DNA of 64,000 bases from Zymomonas mobilis (GTDB lineage: Bacteria > Pseudomonadota > Alphaproteobacteria > Sphingomonadales > Sphingomonadaceae). Shown one piece after another: positions 7,128 through 55,047 of this stretch. The translations under genes and the position numbers were made by a program. The notes under the pieces were generated by a model. That model saw only the letters and a list, made by a program, of their open reading frames with translations, was not told the DNA's origin and did no database searches. Position 1 is the first letter of the stretch. Each line of letters begins with the position of its first letter. Location of the stretch: NCBI RefSeq assembly GCF_006715975.1, contig NZ_VFOF01000001.1:1829001-1893000 (forward strand). The letters run 5' to 3'.

Positions 7128-8222
7128 TTATAGTTGATGACCGCTACGGTCGCGCTTGGTTTCAAGATAGGCCTGATTATGGGGATTGGGTTCGATTTTC
7201 AAAGGCAATCGTTCGACAACGTCAATGCCTGCGTTTTTGAGCCCCTGAACCTTATCGGGATTGTTGGTCAGCAATCGGATTTGTTTCACTTCTAATTCCT
7301 GCAACATTTGGGCAGCGAGCCTGAAATCACGGGCATCATTGACAAATCCCAATCGAACATTGGCATCTACCGTATCGAAGCCCTGATCTTGCAAGCTATA
7401 GGCGCGCAATTTGTTGATAAGTCCGATACCGCGCCCTTCCTGCCGTAAATAAAGCAGGATACCATAGCCGGAATTATCCATAATCCGCAAAGCCTGATGA
7501 AGCTGGGGGCCGCAATCGCATTTAAGCGATCCGAAAACATCGCCGGTTAAACATTCGCTATGCAGACGAACAACGGGTGGCTGTCCATCAGGATGACCGA
7601 TAATGACGGCCACATGTTCAACAGCATCGGCATTATTTCGAAAAGCGACGATCTGACTGTTTTCGATCGCTTTACCATGATCGCCCAAGGAAATCGGCAA
7701 CCGCGCTCTTGCTGCGATATAGACGCCCTGCCCTTGGAAAAAATCGACAATGTCTTCAGCGGGCACCGTTAAAAGCGCCTGATTGGAGTTACCTTCCTGC
7801 ACAAAGAAAGCCGGTAAAAGACCCGCCATTCTGGCTAAATCTAAGGCAGAGGCCGCAGCTTGTTTGGCAGGAGTTTTTCTAACTTTGAAGGGGCCTTTCA
7901 TAGGCTTTTCAAGATCCATAGAAGGATCAGCCAAAGCCAAAGCCGAAGAACAGTCAATCCAAGGCGTTCTGGCCAAGGTCACTGGCTGTTCAGGCGTGGC
8001 GGCTTCTTTGTCATTAGCGAGATTCAAGATGGCTGCCCGTGCCGCCGAAAGGAGCACATCTGCTTTTTTATCTGGATCAAAGACTTTTAACCGCTGATCG
8101 TCTGCCCGTTCGATAGCCAGCAAACTTAAGACATTTTCCTTATCCGCTATTGAGATAGGCCAGCCTCGACGCAAGGCATCAATGGCCTGTGCGATGACTA
8201 TCGCTTTACGATCCTCAACCAT
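7128..8222 (-). CDS. ribA: GTP cyclohydrolase II (with degenerate RibB-like N-terminal region)
   Basis: The 364-residue protein carries a complete C-terminal GTP cyclohydrolase II domain (about residues 165-355), which starts riboflavin synthesis from GTP. Zinc ligands appear as C...C-x-C (SECLTGDVFGSLKCDCGPQL), followed by LRQEGRGIGL and the NNPDKV substrate-binding motif. The first 165 residues resemble the size and position of a dihydroxybutanone-phosphate synthase domain but lack its recognisable acidic active-site signature, so the protein is probably monofunctional; this is an inference. The ATG overlaps the 3' end of xth by 8 bp, indicating an xth-ribA operon. Confidence 0.9.
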   Translation of the reverse strand: MVEDRKAIVIAQAIDALRRGWPISIADKENVLSLLAIERADDQRLKVFDPDKKADVLLSAARAAILNLANDKEAATPEQPVTLARTPWIDCSSALALADPSMDLEKPMKGPFKVRKTPAKQAAASALDLARMAGLLPAFFVQEGNSNQALLTVPAEDIVDFFQGQGVYIAARARLPISLGDHGKAIENSQIVAFRNNADAVEHVAVIIGHPDGQPPVVRLHSECLTGDVFGSLKCDCGPQLHQALRIMDNSGYGILLYLRQEGRGIGLINKLRAYSLQDQGFDTVDANVRLGFVNDARDFRLAAQMLQELEVKQIRLLTNNPDKVQGLKNAGIDVVERLPLKIEPNPHNQAYLETKRDRSGHQL

Positions 8223-9024
8223 TAAAATTAAACTCCGTTAGCAGAGGAACATGATCAGAAGGTTTTGTCCAACTGCGGCAAGATTCATAAACTTTATGGG
8301 CGACAAGATTTTCTAAGAGAGAGGGGCTTGCCCACATATGGTCGAGACGCCTGCCCCGATCAGATTTCGTCCAGTCTTTCGAACGATAACTCCACCATGT
8401 ATATAAACGGTTGGGCGCTGGGTGAAAATGCCGGCCAAGGTCTATCCAGTTATGGCTGGATTGCAGACGTGTGAGATGATCGACCTCTATCGGGGTATGG
8501 CTGACCACTTTTAAAAGCTGTTTATGGCTCCACACATCAGATTCCAAAGGCGCGATATTAAAATCACCAACCAGAATAGTCGGTTTTTCCAAATGGGATG
8601 ACCATTCGATCATACGGCTTATAAAATCGAGTTTTTGACCAAATTTAGGATTAAGATCCCGATCGGGAATATCACCGCCGGCTGGAATATAAACATTTTC
8701 GAGGCGCACACCATTTTCAAGCGTGATGCCTATATGGCGGGCTTCCTGATTATTTTGCCAATCATGACGGGTCATATCAGAAGGAGAAAAAGCAATCCGG
8801 CTGAGAATGGCTACGCCATTATATCCGGGTTGGCCATGCACGGCCTGATGAATATAGCCGAGATCATGGAAAAGACCGGACGGGAAAACATCATTTGTTG
8901 CCTTGGTTTCTTGCAAACAAAGAATATCCGGCTGTTCTTCTTTCAAGAAACGCTCAACATGCACCAATCTGGCACGTACTGAATTGATATTCCATGAGAC
9001 TATACGCAAAATATTTCCTGCCAT
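8215..9024 (-). CDS. xth: Exodeoxyribonuclease III (AP endonuclease)
   Basis: The 269-residue protein is an ExoIII-type AP endonuclease/3'-5' exonuclease for base-excision repair. Diagnostic blocks are RIVSWNINSVRAR at the N-terminus, ILCLQETKA with the catalytic Glu, VGDFNIAP (Asp/Asn), WWSYR and the C-terminal SDHVPLL with the catalytic Asp-His. The length is typical. It is the first gene of a two-gene unit with ribA, overlapping it by 8 bp. No strong ribosome-binding site precedes the ATG. Confidence 0.95.
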   Translation of the reverse strand: MAGNILRIVSWNINSVRARLVHVERFLKEEQPDILCLQETKATNDVFPSGLFHDLGYIHQAVHGQPGYNGVAILSRIAFSPSDMTRHDWQNNQEARHIGITLENGVRLENVYIPAGGDIPDRDLNPKFGQKLDFISRMIEWSSHLEKPTILVGDFNIAPLESDVWSHKQLLKVVSHTPIEVDHLTRLQSSHNWIDLGRHFHPAPNRLYTWWSYRSKDWTKSDRGRRLDHMWASPSLLENLVAHKVYESCRSWTKPSDHVPLLTEFNFNG

Positions 9025-9173
9025 TTATGACCAACAGAATACCACGTTATGGCGTCTTGTGACGTGAAAGACAGCCTTTATCCGGCCAGTATTCAGCTAA
9101 AATGGGCATGATTTAAGCATAGAGAATGCTTGCCTAGCAAGCGGATATTCATATAGATTTTTCAACAAGATAA

Positions 9174-9212
9174 AAAAAGGCCCTCGCTTCGGGGGCGTGA
9201 AGCGAGGGCTGA
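9174..9212 (-). terminator. Strong minus-strand terminator with no annotated gene in front
   Basis: An 11-bp perfect stem (GCCCTCGCTTC / GAAGCGAGGGC, 8-nt loop) is followed on the minus strand by seven Ts. This is a textbook intrinsic terminator on the minus strand only. No protein-coding gene lies upstream on that strand for about 900 bp, which implies a short non-coding transcript. Confidence 0.8.
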
Positions 9213-9330
9213 CCTACATATTGGTCACGCGAGGTGGCCTAGGCTGACAGACAACAGGGGGGAATTCTGCCAGCGGATTGACCACAGAAAAGTCACTACA
9301 CCTTAAAAGCTGTCACTAAGATGAATAAAA
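9174..9330 (-). ncRNA. Putative small RNA
   Basis: About 120-160 bp of comparatively GC-rich sequence sits in very AT-rich surroundings and ends at the strong minus-strand terminator at 9174-9212. It contains a second imperfect hairpin (GGTCAC/GTGGCC, about 9223-9239), a C-run, and no convincing open reading frame. The 5' end is uncertain; the GC content drops beyond about 9320. Two direct GTCACTA copies, 20 bp apart (9292-9298 and 9312-9318 on the plus strand), lie near the expected promoter. I do not recognise a known RNA family. Confidence 0.45.
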
Positions 9331-9680
9331 GACAATCTTTTATTTAAATTTTCCAAATTTTTGCCGTTAATATATATCCTTAAATTTTACATATAAAAAA
9401 AATACAAAAATTATCTAAAATTAGACATCTAATTTCAAAAATATAGTTTGGAGTTAAGTCCTTTTAATAAGGCAATAAAAATCCTTGGATTTAGCGGTCA
9501 AGGATGTCAAAAGATAAGAATAGGCTTTCTGGATTATCCATTTTCATATTAAATATATTTATTTTTAAAATATAAACGAAAGTGAAATAATTTTATTATA
9601 TTTTTATATTTTTGAAAATAATGTTTATTTTTTAATAAAAATACCAATATTTTTATTAGTTAAAAATAAATGGAAAAAAG
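9331..9680. other. Extremely AT-rich intergenic region
   Basis: About 350 bp are dominated by A/T runs. They lie between the putative small RNA and the orphan gene at 9681 and would contain divergent promoters for both. No gene or clear repeat is seen. Confidence 0.5.
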
Positions 9681-10103
9681 ATGAAAATAAAAACCACCAA
9701 AGAGATAAAAAGTATACTTTTGAACATGGTCGATATTCTTATCGAGAATAAAGACTATTGTCGGGGAAGAATTCTTTATCACTTTGCGGATAAAATCGAG
9801 AAAGAGCCTAACTACACCCGCCAGAACATAAAAAAATTATACGGGCATTTTGGCAATTTTTTTGACCTTGAAAATAATAATGAGTTCAAAATATTAAAAG
9901 ATAGGCTTCACGCCTTCCTGTTCAGGGATTTCCAATTGGTTACCCAAACAGCCCATTCTGACGTGATACAGGAAGAATATAAAATGAAACCACTTAATCA
10001 GGACAACAAAAGCCCCATCTCGCCAGTCAATGCCGTAATAAACCGCATTGCGAAAATCAAAAATGACGTTCGCAGAACATATTCATTTCTTTTTAAAAAA
10101 TAG
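9681..10103 (+). CDS. Hypothetical protein, AT-rich orphan gene
   Basis: This 140-residue protein is rich in Lys, Asn, Ile and Phe, and its codons are clearly more AT-rich than those of its neighbours. GGAAAAAAG lies just before the ATG. The central part (about residues 45-80: KLYGHFGNFFDLEN...LKDRLHAFLF) loosely recalls the GMGS-ND-L pattern of small DUF6966-like proteins, but I would not assign it. There is no signal peptide or membrane segment; the C-terminus is basic. Base composition, isolation and the AT-rich flank suggest recent acquisition. It converges on lolA with a 3-bp gap. Confidence 0.6.
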   Translation: MKIKTTKEIKSILLNMVDILIENKDYCRGRILYHFADKIEKEPNYTRQNIKKLYGHFGNFFDLENNNEFKILKDRLHAFLFRDFQLVTQTAHSDVIQEEYKMKPLNQDNKSPISPVNAVINRIAKIKNDVRRTYSFLFKK

Positions 10104-10106
10104 CCT

Positions 10107-10775
10107 TTAGCGAGGGCCATTATTGCCGCGAGGATCATTCCAGCGGAACATATTGTTCGAAACAGGTTGATTAAACTTTTGTTCGGACAAAATAATTTGC
10201 GAGCGGTTATTCTGGGCATCAATAACCGTCCAGCCCATTAACATTAATTGTGCTGGTGCCGAGCGATCTCGTTGGAAATCAATCGCAATCGTTCCGAAAT
10301 CAGGATGTTTCGGATCACGACCGGTAATGATAATATTTTTGCCGTCATCGGATGTCAGCGTCGCATAGCCAGCGATATCCTTTGAAGGATCAATCAAAAT
10401 AGATAACGGGGAATCCCCGATCGGCCAGCGAGAAACCTGCCTGACCGAATAATCGATCATCACCAAAGCTTTACCGTCCCCGACGACGAGTAAGGGCACA
10501 TCTTTTTGATATTGGAAACGGATTAAGCCCGGCTTTTTCAGGGTTAAGTTTCCTTCAAGCGCCTGCCCGTTTCTATCCACCTGAATAAAATGAGCGGTCA
10601 TGGTAGAAACTTCCCGCAGATGTTTTTGTATCTGCGGAAAAATAGTAGAAGAGGCTTCATTTGCAGGCGCGGCCATCGCCGGAAGCCCTGATAGACAGAA
10701 GCCTGCTGTCAAAAACGTGGCAGCAACAGCCTTGCAAAAAAACCGTTTTGAATTTGACCGAACCAACTCTTCCAC
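10107..10775 (-). CDS. lolA: Outer-membrane lipoprotein carrier protein LolA
   Basis: The 222-residue periplasmic protein has a signal peptide (about residues 1-35, ending AMA) and a LolA-type fold. It ferries lipoproteins released by LolCDE across the periplasm to the outer membrane. Recognisable pieces are the QIQKHLREVSTMTAHFIQ helix start, LTLKKPGLIRFQY and the terminal MFRWNDPR. The start is a GTG at 10773-10775 with a weak ribosome-binding site. It lies 88 bp downstream of ftsK on the same strand, the common ftsK-lolA order of proteobacteria. The window also encodes several lipoproteins that would be its clients (MlaA, BamD, 55048, 55480). Confidence 0.85.
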   Translation of the reverse strand: MEELVRSNSKRFFCKAVAATFLTAGFCLSGLPAMAAPANEASSTIFPQIQKHLREVSTMTAHFIQVDRNGQALEGNLTLKKPGLIRFQYQKDVPLLVVGDGKALVMIDYSVRQVSRWPIGDSPLSILIDPSKDIAGYATLTSDDGKNIIITGRDPKHPDFGTIAIDFQRDRSAPAQLMLMGWTVIDAQNNRSQIILSEQKFNQPVSNNMFRWNDPRGNNGPR

Positions 10776-10863
10776 GTTTTTCTAACCCTTCAACGATAAA
10801 AGATTAAAGACCTTTATCTTTCTTGCTCATGAGCAGAATTCAGGTGAACTCAACGTTAATTAG

Positions 10864-13275
10864 CTACAGTAACGAAACAAGTTCATCCGCCTGAATAAGC
10901 ACTTCCCGCCGTCCGACATGGTCAGCCGCCGAGACGATCCCTTCTTTTTCCATACGTTCAATTAAGCGAGCCGCATTATTATAGCCAACTCGTAATTGGC
11001 GTTGGAGCCAACTGGTTGAAGCTTTTCGGCTTTCGACAACCAACTGGACAGCATCGCGATACCGTTTTGTTTCGGGATCATGGTCGCCATCAGGTTGGCC
11101 TTCGAGTTTATAGCCACCATCTGCAGGTTCTTCTGTGACTGAAGAAATATATTCCGGCGTGCCTTGCTCCCGCCAATGATCGGCAACGGCCTGCACTTCG
11201 CCATCACTGACAAAAGGACCGTGAACACGTAAGACCTGTTTTCCACCCGGCATATAGAGCATGTCACCCTTGCCCAAAAGCTGTTCAGCTCCCTGTTCAC
11301 CGAGAATAGTGCGGGAGTCGATTTTGGACGTCACCTGAAAACTGATACGGGTTGGCAAGTTGGCTTTAATCACACCCGTAATAACGTCAACGGAAGGCCG
11401 CTGCGTTGCCATAATGAGATGGATACCGGCGGCACGGGCTTTCTGTGCCAAACGTTGGATAAGATATTCAACTTCTTTACCTGCCGTCATCATCAAATCG
11501 GCCAATTCGTCAACAACGATAACGATTTGCGGCAAAGGTTCATATTCTAAGGTTTCATCTTCATAAATCGGCTGGCCGCTGACCTTGTCATATCCGGTTT
11601 GCACCTTGCGGCTAAGCGGTTCGCCTCGAGCCTGTGCTTCTTTCACTTTTTGATTGAAACCGGCAAGGCCACGAACACCGGCAGAAGCCATCATCCGATA
11701 GCGTTCTTCCATCTGCTCAACAGCCCATTTCAAAGCCCGAACGGCTTTTGCCGGTTCGGTCACAACTGGAGAAAGAAGATGGGGAATGCCGTCATAGATA
11801 GAAAGTTCCAACATCTTTGGATCGATCATGATCATGCGGCATTGATCGGGTGTCAGGCGATATAACAATGACAAAATCATGCAGTTGATACCAACCGATT
11901 TACCAGAACCGGTAGTACCCGCAACCAGAAGATGAGGCATTGGCGCAAGATCGGTAATAACTGGGTCACCAGCAATATTTTTACCGAGGATTAGAGGTAA
12001 TGACCCTTGCTGGTTGTCATAGACTTCTGATCCAACCAACTCCCGAAGCGAGACCATATCTCTTTTGGGGTTAGGTAATTCGATACCAATAACCGTCCGC
12101 CCCGGAATAACCGCAATACGGGCGGATTCAGCCGACATATAACGTGCGATATCATCCGCCAGAGCGATAACGCGGCTGGCTTTGATACCAGCGTCGGGTT
12201 CCAGTTCATACATGGTAACCACGGGCCCCGGACGGATTTCTACAATCTGGCCACGGACATGAAAATCTTGAAGAACGGTTTCTAGCAACCGAGCATTACG
12301 TTCCAAGGCGTCATGATCAACTGCATGCACAGAATGAACCGGAATTTCCTGTAAAAAGTCGATGGTAGGTAAGGCGTAATTTGTTTGCTCGTGGGGTGTT
12401 TTTCTTTTGGCTGGATCACTGGAATCTATTTTGGGTGAATAGGTCGTAATAATTGGGCGAGAATCCGATTTTTCGACTGTTTTTTCTTCCTCGGCGAGGA
12501 TTTCTTCCAGTTCAATATTCTCCACTTCCTTGCTGCCGCCTAAGCTGGGGGAGAATAAAGGTTCCTTAGAAGCTATCCGTTCATTTGAAGCCGGTTGATT
12601 ATTTTTAGCTGATGATTTTTGCTTTTCTGTTTTCTTCGAACGGAAACGTAAGCCAGAAAAGACGCGACGTAAAATCGCCTTTTCATAGGCATCAAAGCCC
12701 AATCCCCATAACCAGACAGCACAACCGCCTGCCAAGCAAAGACAAAACGCAAAACCATGGATAGCGGAAGAAAAGGAAGGCGAAAAAAATGACTGTATTT
12801 TATACGTAACCGCGTTGGTTAATAAGCCAATACCGCCGCCCCATCCGGCGGGTAAGCCGCTTTGGCTGTCATTCATTAAACCAGCCGAAGCGGAGACCAG
12901 CATTATGCCTAAAATCATAAAAGCAATATGCCGGAAAGGATGCTCTTGCTGCACATTACGCCATAGGCGAAAAGCAATTACCAGCATCGGGGGCAAAACC
13001 ATTAAAACAGGCAGCCCGATAAAGCTTAGCAAAAGATCCGAAAACCATGCCCCGATATCGCCCGTAATATTACGAGCAGGCCCTGCGGCGGCAGTATTAA
13101 AGGCAGGATCAGTTGAATTATAGCCCATTAAGGCAGCAAAAAGAAAAGCCGCACCGGCAAATAAAGCAACCGCCATAATAAAGCTGGCGCTGCGTGCCGT
13201 TACATGACGCATCCGTGCTTGCCATTCCGATCCGGTTATTTCGGAAATGATGCCTGTGGCCATAGATGAATTCAA
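10864..13275 (-). CDS. ftsK: DNA translocase FtsK
   Basis: The 803-residue protein couples chromosome segregation to division. The N-terminal part has four predicted membrane helices (about residues 30-195), followed by a short charged linker (about 205-310), unlike the very long linker of E. coli FtsK. The ATPase motor has Walker A GTTGSGKSVG (about residue 455), Walker B IVIVVDELADLM, and the MATQRPSVDVITG block. The C-terminal winged-helix gamma domain (about 735-800: LQRQLRVGYNNAARLIERME) recognises polar chromosome sequences. lolA follows on the same strand. Confidence 0.95.
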   Translation of the reverse strand: MNSSMATGIISEITGSEWQARMRHVTARSASFIMAVALFAGAAFLFAALMGYNSTDPAFNTAAAGPARNITGDIGAWFSDLLLSFIGLPVLMVLPPMLVIAFRLWRNVQQEHPFRHIAFMILGIMLVSASAGLMNDSQSGLPAGWGGGIGLLTNAVTYKIQSFFSPSFSSAIHGFAFCLCLAGGCAVWLWGLGFDAYEKAILRRVFSGLRFRSKKTEKQKSSAKNNQPASNERIASKEPLFSPSLGGSKEVENIELEEILAEEEKTVEKSDSRPIITTYSPKIDSSDPAKRKTPHEQTNYALPTIDFLQEIPVHSVHAVDHDALERNARLLETVLQDFHVRGQIVEIRPGPVVTMYELEPDAGIKASRVIALADDIARYMSAESARIAVIPGRTVIGIELPNPKRDMVSLRELVGSEVYDNQQGSLPLILGKNIAGDPVITDLAPMPHLLVAGTTGSGKSVGINCMILSLLYRLTPDQCRMIMIDPKMLELSIYDGIPHLLSPVVTEPAKAVRALKWAVEQMEERYRMMASAGVRGLAGFNQKVKEAQARGEPLSRKVQTGYDKVSGQPIYEDETLEYEPLPQIVIVVDELADLMMTAGKEVEYLIQRLAQKARAAGIHLIMATQRPSVDVITGVIKANLPTRISFQVTSKIDSRTILGEQGAEQLLGKGDMLYMPGGKQVLRVHGPFVSDGEVQAVADHWREQGTPEYISSVTEEPADGGYKLEGQPDGDHDPETKRYRDAVQLVVESRKASTSWLQRQLRVGYNNAARLIERMEKEGIVSAADHVGRREVLIQADELVSLL

Positions 13276-25233: not shown

Positions 25234-26090
25234 ATGAAATGGATGAGAAATGTATTTTTACTAACAACTTTAAGTTTATCACCTCTTATGGTGGCGCAAG
25301 CAGAAACGAATCAGGAAGTAAAAATTATATCTGAATCGTCTTTTACTTATGCCGACTTTGTGGATATTACCCTTATGTCTCCGATTGTTGCTTCAATCGA
25401 GGTCACGAGAGCTAAAAATTATCCTCGAAACTCGCACCTGATTTACCAGAAGGTAAAACCCGATTTTATATTGAAGCCAAAGTTTCCACATTGATTCGCG
25501 GTGCCGACGGAATTGCTAACAATATTTCTTATCTCCTTGATGTCGCGAATGATAACAAAGGGCGTGCAAAACGCATTCCTGAAAAAACCCGTTTTTTAAT
25601 ATTTGGACAGCCGGTATCAGGGCATCCTGATCAAATCATGCTGACCCGACCAGACTCCAATCTTGATTGGGATGCGAAGAGTGAAGCGGTCGTAAGTGGG
25701 ATCACCCGTGACCTTCTTTCAAATGCACCTGCACCTCAGATCACATCTATCACGAGTGCCTTTTACGTGCCGGGTTCAGTACCGGGCGAAAGTGAAACCC
25801 AGATCTTTTTGCAAACCGTAAGCAAGCAACCGATCTCTTTGAATATTTTACGCCGACCACAGGAAAAGCCGCAATGGGCTGTTGCGTTAGGTGAAATGAC
25901 AGATGAAGCCGCAACGCCCCCCGCTCCGAATAGCCTTTTATGGTATCGGTTGGCCTGTGGATTACCTCGGAATATTCCACAATCCGTTTTATCGACATTA
26001 TCCGAGCATGATATGATGGCCGTCATTGATGATTATAAAGTTGTTCTCTCTGGATTGGGTTCGTGCAGTCGCAACCATCATTTTAAATAA
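25234..26090 (+). pseudogene. Secreted protein gene of unknown function, split by a homopolymer frameshift
   Basis: Two consecutive frames clearly form one gene. The first (25234-25494) encodes a signal peptide (MKWMRNVF...VAQA, about 23 residues) and FTYADFVDITLMSPIVASIEVTRAK, then drifts into non-homologous residues. In the shifted frame the protein continues as LSSKLAPDLPEGKTRFYIEAKVS into the second frame, which runs to 26090 and includes FLIFGQPVSGHPDQ. Adding one A to the AAAAA run at 25414-25418 restores a continuous reading frame of about 285 residues. This could be a real null allele, phase variation, or a sequencing error. Sphingomonads have similar-looking secreted proteins of unknown role. 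Confidence 0.75.
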
Positions 26091-26137
26091 AAAATTAGAA
26101 TATTGGGAAATATTCGAAAAACTTTTGTGCCTGAATG

Positions 26138-26179
26138 CCGGTATTCTGAATTATCTATTATAAGGATTGAGAATACCGG
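26138..26179. repeat. Inverted repeat downstream of the frameshifted gene
   Basis: CCGGTATTCT and AGAATACCGG are perfect 10-bp arms around a 22-nt AT-rich loop, about 48 bp after the stop. It has no T-run, so it may be a weak terminator or message-stabilising structure. Confidence 0.5.
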
Positions 26180-26829
26180 TGCGTGAAAGCTCATCATTTT
26201 CAAAAACAACGATTTTTTTATTAAAACACAAAATAAAATTTACTTTTTTACAATAAAAATCATCGTCTTTCATTTTATCAAAAATCAAAATTACTTATTT
26301 TTTCATCCAAAACAAATATTTCATGACAACGTTGACAAAAAAACTTTTATTTTTTCCATAAAAAAACACAAATAATACAAGAGAGAATTATTTACAGGCA
26401 AGAAAATCACAGAAAAATAACAAAATATTACTTTAAAATCGACAACACTTCTTTCGATAAAAAGAAAACCATCCGAGATTCACGATATCCAAATTATTTC
26501 CATAAAAAAACAAAATACATCTAATTCCCTATTAATTTACTTTTAAATATATACAAAAATATAATTTTTACTTCAAACTTCTCAAAAAAAATTAACATTA
26601 CTTTAATTAACAAAAGAAAATATTTGGAAAATATTTTTGATATCTTCCTTAATTAAGAAGGAAAACTTAGTTATAATCCTATCAGTTGGCCGAATCGCTG
26701 GTAGTCAATTTTGATTTATTGGAAATGCCTTTTGACATATCTGAAAAATCAAAACCGCCTACATAATTTAAAGCGAACGGACAGCATTTACCTCCGTGAT
26801 ACGGGGTGATTTTGTGAGTGGTGAGAATA
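26180..26829 (+). promoter_or_regulatory. AT-rich upstream region of frk
   Basis: About 650 bp contain no plausible gene. A perfect TATAAT at 26672-26677 with TTAATT 17 bp upstream is a possible sigma-70 promoter, and a CTTAATTAAG palindrome (26648-26657) overlaps the region between them. A long leader of about 150 bp before frk would follow. The rest is A/T-tract DNA. Confidence 0.4.
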
Positions 26830-27840
26830 ATGAAAAACGATAAAAAAATTTATGGATGCATTGAAGGCGGCGGAACGAAATTCATGCTCGCCCTTATCGA
26901 CTCTGACCGGCAGGTCTTGGCTGTGGAACGTGTTCCAACCACAACCCCTGAAGAAACGCTTGGTAAAAGCATTGAATTCTTCAAGAAAGCCCTTCCCGAT
27001 TATGCTGATTCCTATGCAGCTTTCGGTATTGCGACTTTTGGCCCGCTTTGCTTGGATCGCAAAAACCCGAAATGGGGTTACATCACGAATACCCCGAAAC
27101 CTTTCTGGCCAGATACTGACGTTGTAACGCCTTTCAAAGAAGCGTTCGGATGCCCGATCGAAATCGATACGGACGTTAACGGTGCAGCTATCGCTGAACA
27201 TTGCTGGGGTGCATCGCAGAACACCGGCACATCGGTTTATGTCACTGTCGGCACCGGTTTCGGTGGTGGTGTATTAATTGATGGTAAGCCAATTCACGGT
27301 CTGGCTCATCCTGAAATGGGTCATGGCATTCCTATCCGTCACCCTGATGATCGCGATTTTGAAGGCTGCTGCCCATTCCATGGCGGTTGCTATGAAGGTC
27401 TTGCCAGCGGCACGGCTATTCGCAAACGCTGGGGTAAAGCGCTTAATGAAATGAGCCCTTCGGAATTTGAAAAAGCAAGAGAAATCATTGCTTTCTATCT
27501 GGCTCATTTCAACGTAACGCTTCAGGCCTTTATTTCACCAGAACGTATCGTTTTCGGCGGTGGCGTCATGCATGTTGAAGGTATGCTGGATTCTGTCCGT
27601 CGTCAGACGGCTGAAATTGCCAATGGTTATTTCGGTGGTGCAGACTTTAGCAAAATCATCGTATTGCCAGGATTAGGCGATCAGGCCGGTATGATGGGTG
27701 CTTTTGCTTTGGCATTGGCCGCAAAAAATAATGTGGACAAGCCTTCCAATGCACAGCTTGCAGATGTCAAAGAAGGTTTTGAAGATGTAGGTGGTTTATC
27801 CTCTTCTTCGACCATTACTTCCAGACAGCCTGCAGAATAA
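26830..27840 (+). CDS. frk: Fructokinase (ROK family)
   Basis: The 336-residue enzyme phosphorylates fructose to fructose 6-phosphate, feeding the Entner-Doudoroff pathway after glucose-6-phosphate isomerisation. The N-terminal phosphate loop is YGCIEGGGTKFMLALID. The ROK sugar-binding region has DTDVNGAAIAEHCWG and GTGFGGGVLIDG, and zinc ligands appear in HPEMGHG...GCCPFHGGCYEGLASG. I recognise the sequence as Zymomonas Frk. A GTG 12 bp upstream is also in frame, but the ATG at 26830 starts MKNDKKIYG, the known N-terminus. It is monocistronic with a strong terminator. Confidence 0.95.
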   Translation: MKNDKKIYGCIEGGGTKFMLALIDSDRQVLAVERVPTTTPEETLGKSIEFFKKALPDYADSYAAFGIATFGPLCLDRKNPKWGYITNTPKPFWPDTDVVTPFKEAFGCPIEIDTDVNGAAIAEHCWGASQNTGTSVYVTVGTGFGGGVLIDGKPIHGLAHPEMGHGIPIRHPDDRDFEGCCPFHGGCYEGLASGTAIRKRWGKALNEMSPSEFEKAREIIAFYLAHFNVTLQAFISPERIVFGGGVMHVEGMLDSVRRQTAEIANGYFGGADFSKIIVLPGLGDQAGMMGAFALALAAKNNVDKPSNAQLADVKEGFEDVGGLSSSSTITSRQPAE

Positions 27841-53941: not shown

Positions 53942-55047
53942 AAATCGGAAACTAACCGGAATTAGAGGTGCTTTGCTCTTGGTGATAGGACTTATCTGCC
54001 GGATTTTTTAGGTTTGGGACGAAGGCAACCTTGGCGAAAGGCATATTCTCATTTCAACAAACCCGCAGGTTGCCTTCCCTACATATGGGCTGAGGATATA
54101 AATGATGGCACGGCGAATGAAGGTCAGTTGAGAGCAGAAAGCCAATAGGTTTCCTGCTGAGAGCAGAAGGACAGGATATCAGCGGCAAAAATGAGGGTAG
54201 GTCGAGATTCGGTTCAATGAAAGCCATACGGCAAGGGCGGCTTTAAAAAACGACGGAAGCCTCTAATTACAACAAATACAGGTATTTTTGATGCAATATA
54301 TTTCTAATAAATCGATGCTTTATTAAAAACGAAAAATAAATCTTATGGCGTCAAGATATCGGCGGCAAAGGACAGCCGCTTTATTCATTATATATTATCT
54401 ATCCTTTTTTTATATTCATATTTCTTAATTAAAGGTCATATTACAGCAAGAAACAGCTTGTTTATCGTCATATAAAATTATTAATCTTCCTACAAAATAA
54501 GCGCATAATTTTAAAAATCTTATTATTTTTACATCTTGTAATTTTAAATATTAGTAAGAAATTTATCTTAAATTCAAATATTTTCAGAGCACTTGCATAA
54601 TATGTACCAATAATAAAAAATGAAAACCATAAATAAAAATAATAAAAAGTATCCATTACCAAAATATTATTTTTATATATTTCAAAAAAGCACAAAAAAC
54701 GGAATAAATGAAAATATTTTGTATTTTAATGATATTTATTTGTTATTTTAAAACTTTCGCATATTATTTTATAAAGAAAAAATGGGGCATCTAAATCATT
54801 TTTGATATTTATAAGCCCGATTAAAATATCAGAAAAAAGATTGACCCTTTCATAAGAAAATATAGTAAGTATATTTGATTTCAGCTTGGTTCCCGATAGC
54901 CTATAATGGCTTTTTCATTGCGGAAACCTATAGTTTTCGTTAAAGAGCGAAATGCAGGTTTCTACAGGAAACAGGCTGAATAAATAAAATAAACACAATA
55001 TAGTGCTTTTTTCAGGTTTGCATTACATTCAAAAGGTTAGCCTTATT
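53942..55047. other. 1.1-kb non-coding region with inverted and direct repeats
   Basis: No credible gene is present. The first 320 bp are less AT-rich and contain a perfect 11-bp inverted repeat GAAGGCAACCT (54021-54031)/AGGTTGCCTTC (54067-54077), two TGAGAGCAGAA direct copies (about 54127 and 54161), and two near-identical GATATCxGCGGCAAA copies (about 54175 and 54355). The remainder to 55000 is extremely AT-rich; a 75-codon minus-strand frame at 54468-54695 has chance-like composition. The pattern may mark a decayed gene or RNA. Confidence 0.5.

Follow-up and report, generated by a model that had tools for sequence, protein, structure and literature searches.

A probable small RNA with a conserved C-rich loop, encoded near lolA in Zymomonas mobilis and other Sphingomonadaceae

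Introduction

Among described small RNAs (sRNAs), a close parallel in shape to the one considered here is GsrN, an RNA of ∼106 nt that acts in the general stress response of Caulobacteraceae and ends in a 3′ terminator (PMC5869019). According to the available part of that report, its 5′ loop carries six tandem cytosines proposed to recognize G-rich sites in mRNAs (the pairing being proven for katG, which GsrN activates), and the gene is tied to a σ-EcfG promoter. The same part places its predicted homologs typically near ecfG-nepR-phyR, with BLASTn hits confined to Caulobacteraceae and no gsrN-like gene seen in Erythrobacter litoralis (PMC5869019). A second reference point is the ChvR-ChvT pair of Caulobacter, where, as described in the accessible text of PMC9731502, a response regulator switches on an sRNA that in turn represses a TonB-dependent receptor.

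For sphingomonads themselves, our literature search surfaced the SuhB RNA of Sphingopyxis and the Zms RNAs of Zymomonas. In the portion of PMC6563040 available to us, SuhB of Sphingopyxis granuli is an Hfq-dependent trans-acting sRNA that acts on a 5′ UTR, and the corresponding portion of PMC6970203 gives 679 predicted candidate regions for the Zms and REFINE sRNAs of Zymomonas mobilis. The search, which covered PMC8632094 by search terms only, found no description of the RNA reported below. The locus may be among the published Zymomonas candidates as an unnamed entry.

Here we analyse a locus within a 64,000-nucleotide stretch of the Z. mobilis genome (hereafter the window, meaning the whole stretch of DNA that was analysed). 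Its minus strand at 9286-9172 is probably the gene for a small RNA of ∼115 nt, as judged from sequence comparison.

Results

Genomic setting and predicted structure of the RNA

On the minus strand of the window (from a genome of 2.1 Mb) the gene order is ftsK, lolA, the predicted RNA, xthA and ribA. The nearest upstream gene on the same strand is lolA (10107-10775, minus; Pfam LolA, 8.3e-25), which is also the conserved upstream neighbour in other genomes, and the downstream neighbour here is xthA (8215-9024, minus; Pfam Exo_endo_phos, 3.1e-26), encoding an exonuclease III-like protein and starting ∼150 bp past the terminator. In strain ZM4 the xth gene is ZMO1699, and exodeoxyribonuclease III Xth is constitutively down-regulated with ethanol, as stated in the accessible part of PMC3712917; ZMO1699 is probably the xthA of the window (8215-9024). 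Between lolA and the RNA lies a plus-strand open reading frame (ORF) at 9681-10103, of 140 aa, in AT-rich DNA and with no Pfam match; in the three congeneric genomes an ORF of 142-168 aa occupies the equivalent position. A preliminary description, made from the letters of this DNA, had noted very AT-rich surroundings and a terminator with no protein gene ending in front of it. Indeed, the kilobase 9001-10000 has a G+C content of 32%, most other kilobases of the window having 43-52%, and the nearest same-strand gene, lolA, is separated from the terminator by the opposite-strand ORF. Two further stretches of the window, 26001-27000 and 54001-55000, are also low in G+C (30-31%).

The predicted layout consists of a promoter block, a 5′ hairpin, a short linker hairpin and a terminator. 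Minus-strand transcription would start near 9286, the 5′ end of the predicted sRNA (9172-9286, minus, ∼115 nt) being placed from the position of the -10-like element and the base of the first hairpin. Hairpin 1 (9234-9285, minus) presents a C-rich apical loop, UUCCCCCCUGUU (9253-9264, minus), with six Cs in the window, which is the proposed seed. It corresponds to the second hairpin with a C-run of the preliminary description, found on the minus strand at 9285-9234 with the six Cs in the apical loop. Hairpin 2 (9210-9230, minus) forms the conserved linker, beginning with GCGUGACCAA and containing a GCGUGAC-type block. Hairpin 3 is an intrinsic terminator (9172-9209, minus; loop ACGCCCCC), and the 11-bp stem with seven Ts on the minus strand that had been reported for it is present at 9209-9172: a stem at 9209-9180 with 11 pairs (8 of them G-C) and an 8-base loop, followed by a C and seven Ts at 9178-9172. 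The stretch 9330-9173, which includes the promoter region, folds at -57.8 kcal/mol versus -38.6 kcal/mol (sd 3.7) for 200 dinucleotide shuffles, none of which is equally stable (z of -5.2). The number of terminator-like sites in 8000-11000, 5 compared with 3.3 (sd 2.0) after shuffling, is within what chance gives; it is by their conservation, and not by this count, that the features of the locus exceed chance.

Conservation and distribution

A 211-bp query from the locus found its own genome and four more among 40: three belong to the genus, at 85-89% identity, and the fourth, in a different genus of the same family, aligned over 59 nt at 83%. Comparison with the three congeners puts the identity of the RNA (9173-9288) at 88-90% and that of the promoter at 90-97%, the flanks being at 54-68% (upstream) and 52-74% (downstream).

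To sample loci independently of the RNA, we took the best 30 loci found by the XthA protein. The sequence CCCCCCTGTT occurs exactly in 14 of these 30, and the covariance model R1 matches 27 (9 of the 27 went into alignment A4, from which R1 was built), with no match in L016, L019 and L035. The loop reads exactly TTCCCCCCTGTT in 12 of the 27 matches and its CUGUU is constant in all 27; 14 matches have a C-run of six, 12 a run of five and one (L032, the weakest match) a run of three.

A two-block pattern that includes the GCGUGAC-type block, scanned against 84,980 genomes, retrieved at least 119 stretches, with ∼1 chance match calculated. The 80 record titles among the matches listed belong to what we take to be Sphingomonadales, except for one MAG named only as Alphaproteobacteria. 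At the level of the order, R1 matches 217 of 296 genomes (53 of 79 genera), 213 of them in the family of the window. The other four are weak matches in other families (E-values of 2.8e-8 to 7.0e-5), and the 20 listed of the 79 genomes of the order that have no match all belong to other families. In a sample of the class, 19 of 385 genomes were matched, 5 in the family and 14 elsewhere at no more than 44.4 bits; those outside the family were rejected as mostly plain terminators or other C-rich hairpins (judged by eye, with three folded). One hairpin in another family of the class (L182:1490-1580, genome G481) has the identical 12-nt loop TTCCCCCCTGTT on an 8-bp stem and a terminator, with no linker and with different neighbours; it is possibly a distant relative or a convergent sRNA.

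Comparison with Rfam 15 gave no match at gathering score in the window or in 12 loci of other species. Lax E-values returned chance-level matches only (anti-hemB at 16.2 bits, Ms_AS-8 and SorX). The suhB model (RF00519) scores above its cut-off elsewhere in the same genome, at G000:C1:870898-870969; no suhB match was found in the window at gathering (41 bits), nor at E ≤ 10 in 9020-9690. The sole match of the genome to 6S RNA (RF00013) is at C1:271111-271269, with 43.6 bits under a cut-off of 46.4.

Covariation of the stems

When 14 genomes were folded singly, hairpin 2 and the terminator formed in all 14, and hairpin 1 with the C-run in its loop in 13, the exception being L132, where the C-run is partly paired. 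On alignment A3 (48 hand-picked sequences) RNAalifold predicted hairpins 2 and 3 and missed hairpin 1, in our reading because its arms, being of unequal length, were misaligned; hairpin 1 was therefore assessed by swapping arms between genomes, using 63 non-redundant sequences of the at least 119. With their own arms the hairpins fold at -26.4 kcal/mol on average, versus -17.7 kcal/mol (sd 4.7) with swapped arms; the own pairing is more stable than over 95% of the swaps in 45 of the 63 genomes (∼3 expected) and than all 62 in 24.

Alignment A4 comprises 56 of 58 non-redundant sequences, all holding TTCCCCCCTGTT (L025 and L161 were excluded, and L059 and L091 are truncated at the end of the locus). 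Its covariation score is 0.360 versus 0.158 in shuffles, none of 500 being as high, while slid controls reach at most 0.137; the shuffle control ignores the relatedness of the sequences, which the slid control corrects for in part. Paired cells amount to 96.4% versus 87.0% in shuffles, and cells altered on both sides to 127 versus 29. For A5, the XthA-fetched set aligned to R1 and hence leaning towards that model, the score is 0.323 versus 0.195 in the control.

The covariation signal resides mostly in the terminator, whose helix is paired in 99.9% of the cells of A4, with 9 of 12 pairs doubly changed in at least one sequence. The helix of hairpin 2 is paired in 96.9% (A4) and 96.1% (A5) of cells, no pair being doubly changed in A4. 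In the inner helix of hairpin 1, 3 of 4 pairs are doubly changed in A4, only 74-86% of its cells being paired (A4 and A5). The sequences of A3 and A4 were selected by the loop, which is thus invariant there by construction.

The preliminary description had proposed an unannotated small RNA of about this size on this strand, and the comparative evidence argues for it. The compensatory changes that it had suggested looking for among sphingomonads are seen in the stems. It had also named beforehand, as its own test, whether the RNA body is conserved beyond the terminator; here the loop, the linker and the promoter are kept, and the 5′ stem covaries.

Promoter block

Upstream of the RNA on the minus strand lie a first half-site TTCAT (9321-9325), present as [AG]TTCA[TC] in 117 of the 119 loci among the matches listed, a second half-site GACAG (9310-9314) placed 11 bp after the first and reading GCTCAT in some genomes, and a -10-like element TAGTGA (9293-9298). 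Column counts were made on 106 of the 119 listed loci, anchored on TTCAT, which is thereby fixed by construction. In these, within the second half-site, position 12 is G in 97%, position 15 is A in 98% and position 16 is G in 86%, and the TA of the -10-like element is found at positions 28-29 in 97% and 96%, giving the consensus TTCAT-N6-G-[AC]-[AC]-A-G-N11-TA. Half-sites 11 bp apart, with 11 bp more to the -10 element, resemble the sites of activators of the OmpR/PhoB type, and the start would be activated by a regulator binding the two half-sites. No LexA site (GTTC-N7-GTTC) was found in any of the 119 listed loci, nor was a σ-EcfG site (GGAAC-N15-19-GTT) in the stretch from 120 bp to 15 bp before the loop. 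A doubled GCGACA, with 3-5 bases between the copies, occurs upstream in 21 of the 119.

Two copies of GTCACTA had earlier been taken for a regulator site. The copies do exist, 20 bp apart (9292-9298 and 9312-9318); their reading as a site pair finds no support. Of the two, 9292-9298 coincides with the -10 region; it is altered in two genomes of the genus (G001 and G003) and intact in a third (G002). The other, 9312-9318, shares bases with the conserved second half-site and is unchanged in every one of the four genomes of the genus, so the pair is taken as incidental. What is conserved family-wide is TTCAT-N6-G(A/C)(A/C)AG with its 11-bp step, rather than the 20-bp pair. In its own genome, TTCAT-N6-TTCAT has 14 sites versus one for the reversed pattern; 8 of the 14 are inside mechanically called ORFs and the remaining ones have no function in common, no regulon being evident.

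Neighbouring genes and alternative readings

Since 114 of the 119 loci among the matches listed have a same-strand LolA match no more than 1.5 kb upstream, and 68 have XthA at up to 1.5 kb downstream (another 27 at 1.5-2 kb), lolA is the tighter neighbour and xthA the looser one. The proximity of lolA, whose end lies 72-219 nt ahead of the loop for 110 of the 113 loci measured among the matches listed, is what a terminator with a 3′-UTR fragment of the lolA transcript, possibly freed as an sRNA, would look like. We consider this unlikely: the conserved promoter block sits between lolA and the RNA, and in the genus of the window the opposite-strand ORF and ∼800 bp separate the two. Moreover, of the five loci without a LolA match, three have ∼200 nt or less of upstream sequence, and in the remaining two (L064 and L136) the RNA is present and no LolA match is seen.

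The short distance to xthA in the window, together with its downstream position in many other loci, would equally suit a 5′ leader or attenuator, in which the terminator stops most transcripts and a signal permits read-through into xthA. This is improbable in view of the 17 of the 119 listed loci that have room for xthA and show no match to it in the retrieved stretch (7 more have no room), and of the 27 in which it is more than 1.5 kb away; besides, the terminator helix is near-perfect in every row and no conserved alternative partner was noticed. As for a small-protein gene, nothing was seen in its favour; the longest closed ORF within the region ranges from fewer than 5 to 30-34 codons, every bin being occupied among the 119 listed sequences, and the stems vary by compensatory substitutions and by indels, which leaves this reading hardly credible. 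We favour a stand-alone gene for a trans-acting sRNA of ∼115 nt that pairs through its C-rich loop with G-rich ribosome-binding sites, a reading that, on sequence grounds, we hold to be quite probable.

Candidate targets

An unpaired C-rich loop retained on a freely changing stem is the profile expected of a seed for G-rich ribosome-binding sites. The loop UUCCCCCCUGUU would pair with such sites, probably aided by Hfq at the U-tail, and translation of the targets would mostly be lowered. Outer-membrane transport genes, such as one for a TonB-dependent receptor, are our best guess for these targets. In its own genome, the motif CAGGGGGR occurs 2-12 bases before an ATG in 17 matches at 15 distinct places, versus 2 when the pattern is reversed; the three alternative first bases sum to 34 (9 reversed), so CAGGGGGR is not enriched before starts. 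Two of the 15 places precede long ORFs, encoding a TonB-dependent receptor (by Pfam) and a NicO-like protein (an assignment below the Pfam cut-off, with 70 residues scanned).

The candidate site ACAGGGGGAAA precedes the receptor start in three of the four genomes of the genus and only partially, as GGGGGA, in G002. The duplex with the loop is worth -17.1, -17.0 and -17.0 kcal/mol in the three and -12.6 kcal/mol in G002, the best of 56 start regions picked mechanically across the window being -13.8 kcal/mol; as the receptor was picked by its motif, this ranking is biased and only the conservation is informative. The reading frame of the receptor is open for a further 234 nt upstream, which makes its start codon uncertain. 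TTCAT-N6-TTCAT is found upstream of the receptor in all four genomes (L214-L217), and one regulator may control both genes, given that half-sites of the TTCAT type, with an 11-bp step, precede the sRNA and the receptor alike. All four genomes also keep, upstream of the receptor, a TTAGAA element and the inverted repeat GTTATGT...ACATAAC.

Discussion

The wide retention of this C-run RNA across one large bacterial family makes it likely to be an undescribed switch acting on other genes. We put forward more tentatively, and with considerable doubt, that it represents an undescribed core sRNA family of Sphingomonadaceae, linked to the cell-envelope gene lolA and using its C-rich loop to control a set of transporters of the outer membrane. 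If real, the RNA would offer a testable core regulator for sphingomonads, with loop and promoter both conserved and a covariance model already available; Zymomonas, a tractable ethanol producer, is an organism in which to study it.

SuhB is, like the RNA of the window, a sphingomonad sRNA, yet it is a separate RNA of the same genome. The ChvR-ChvT circuit is of the kind that we guess for the RNA of the window, although the ChvI motif TTGC-N3-GCAA, as given in the accessible text of PMC9731502, differs from its promoter block. Unlike GsrN, the RNA of the window lacks a σ-EcfG site (in all 119 listed loci) and is found in records titled Erythrobacter among the matches listed; its neighbour is lolA in 114 of the 119. 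What it has in common with GsrN is the loop of six Cs (held by 14 of the 27 XthA-fetched matches, with five Cs in 12), a likeness of shape only. By analogy, the mechanism that fits best is that the RNA would work as GsrN and other sRNAs with C-rich loops do, membership in their families not being implied.
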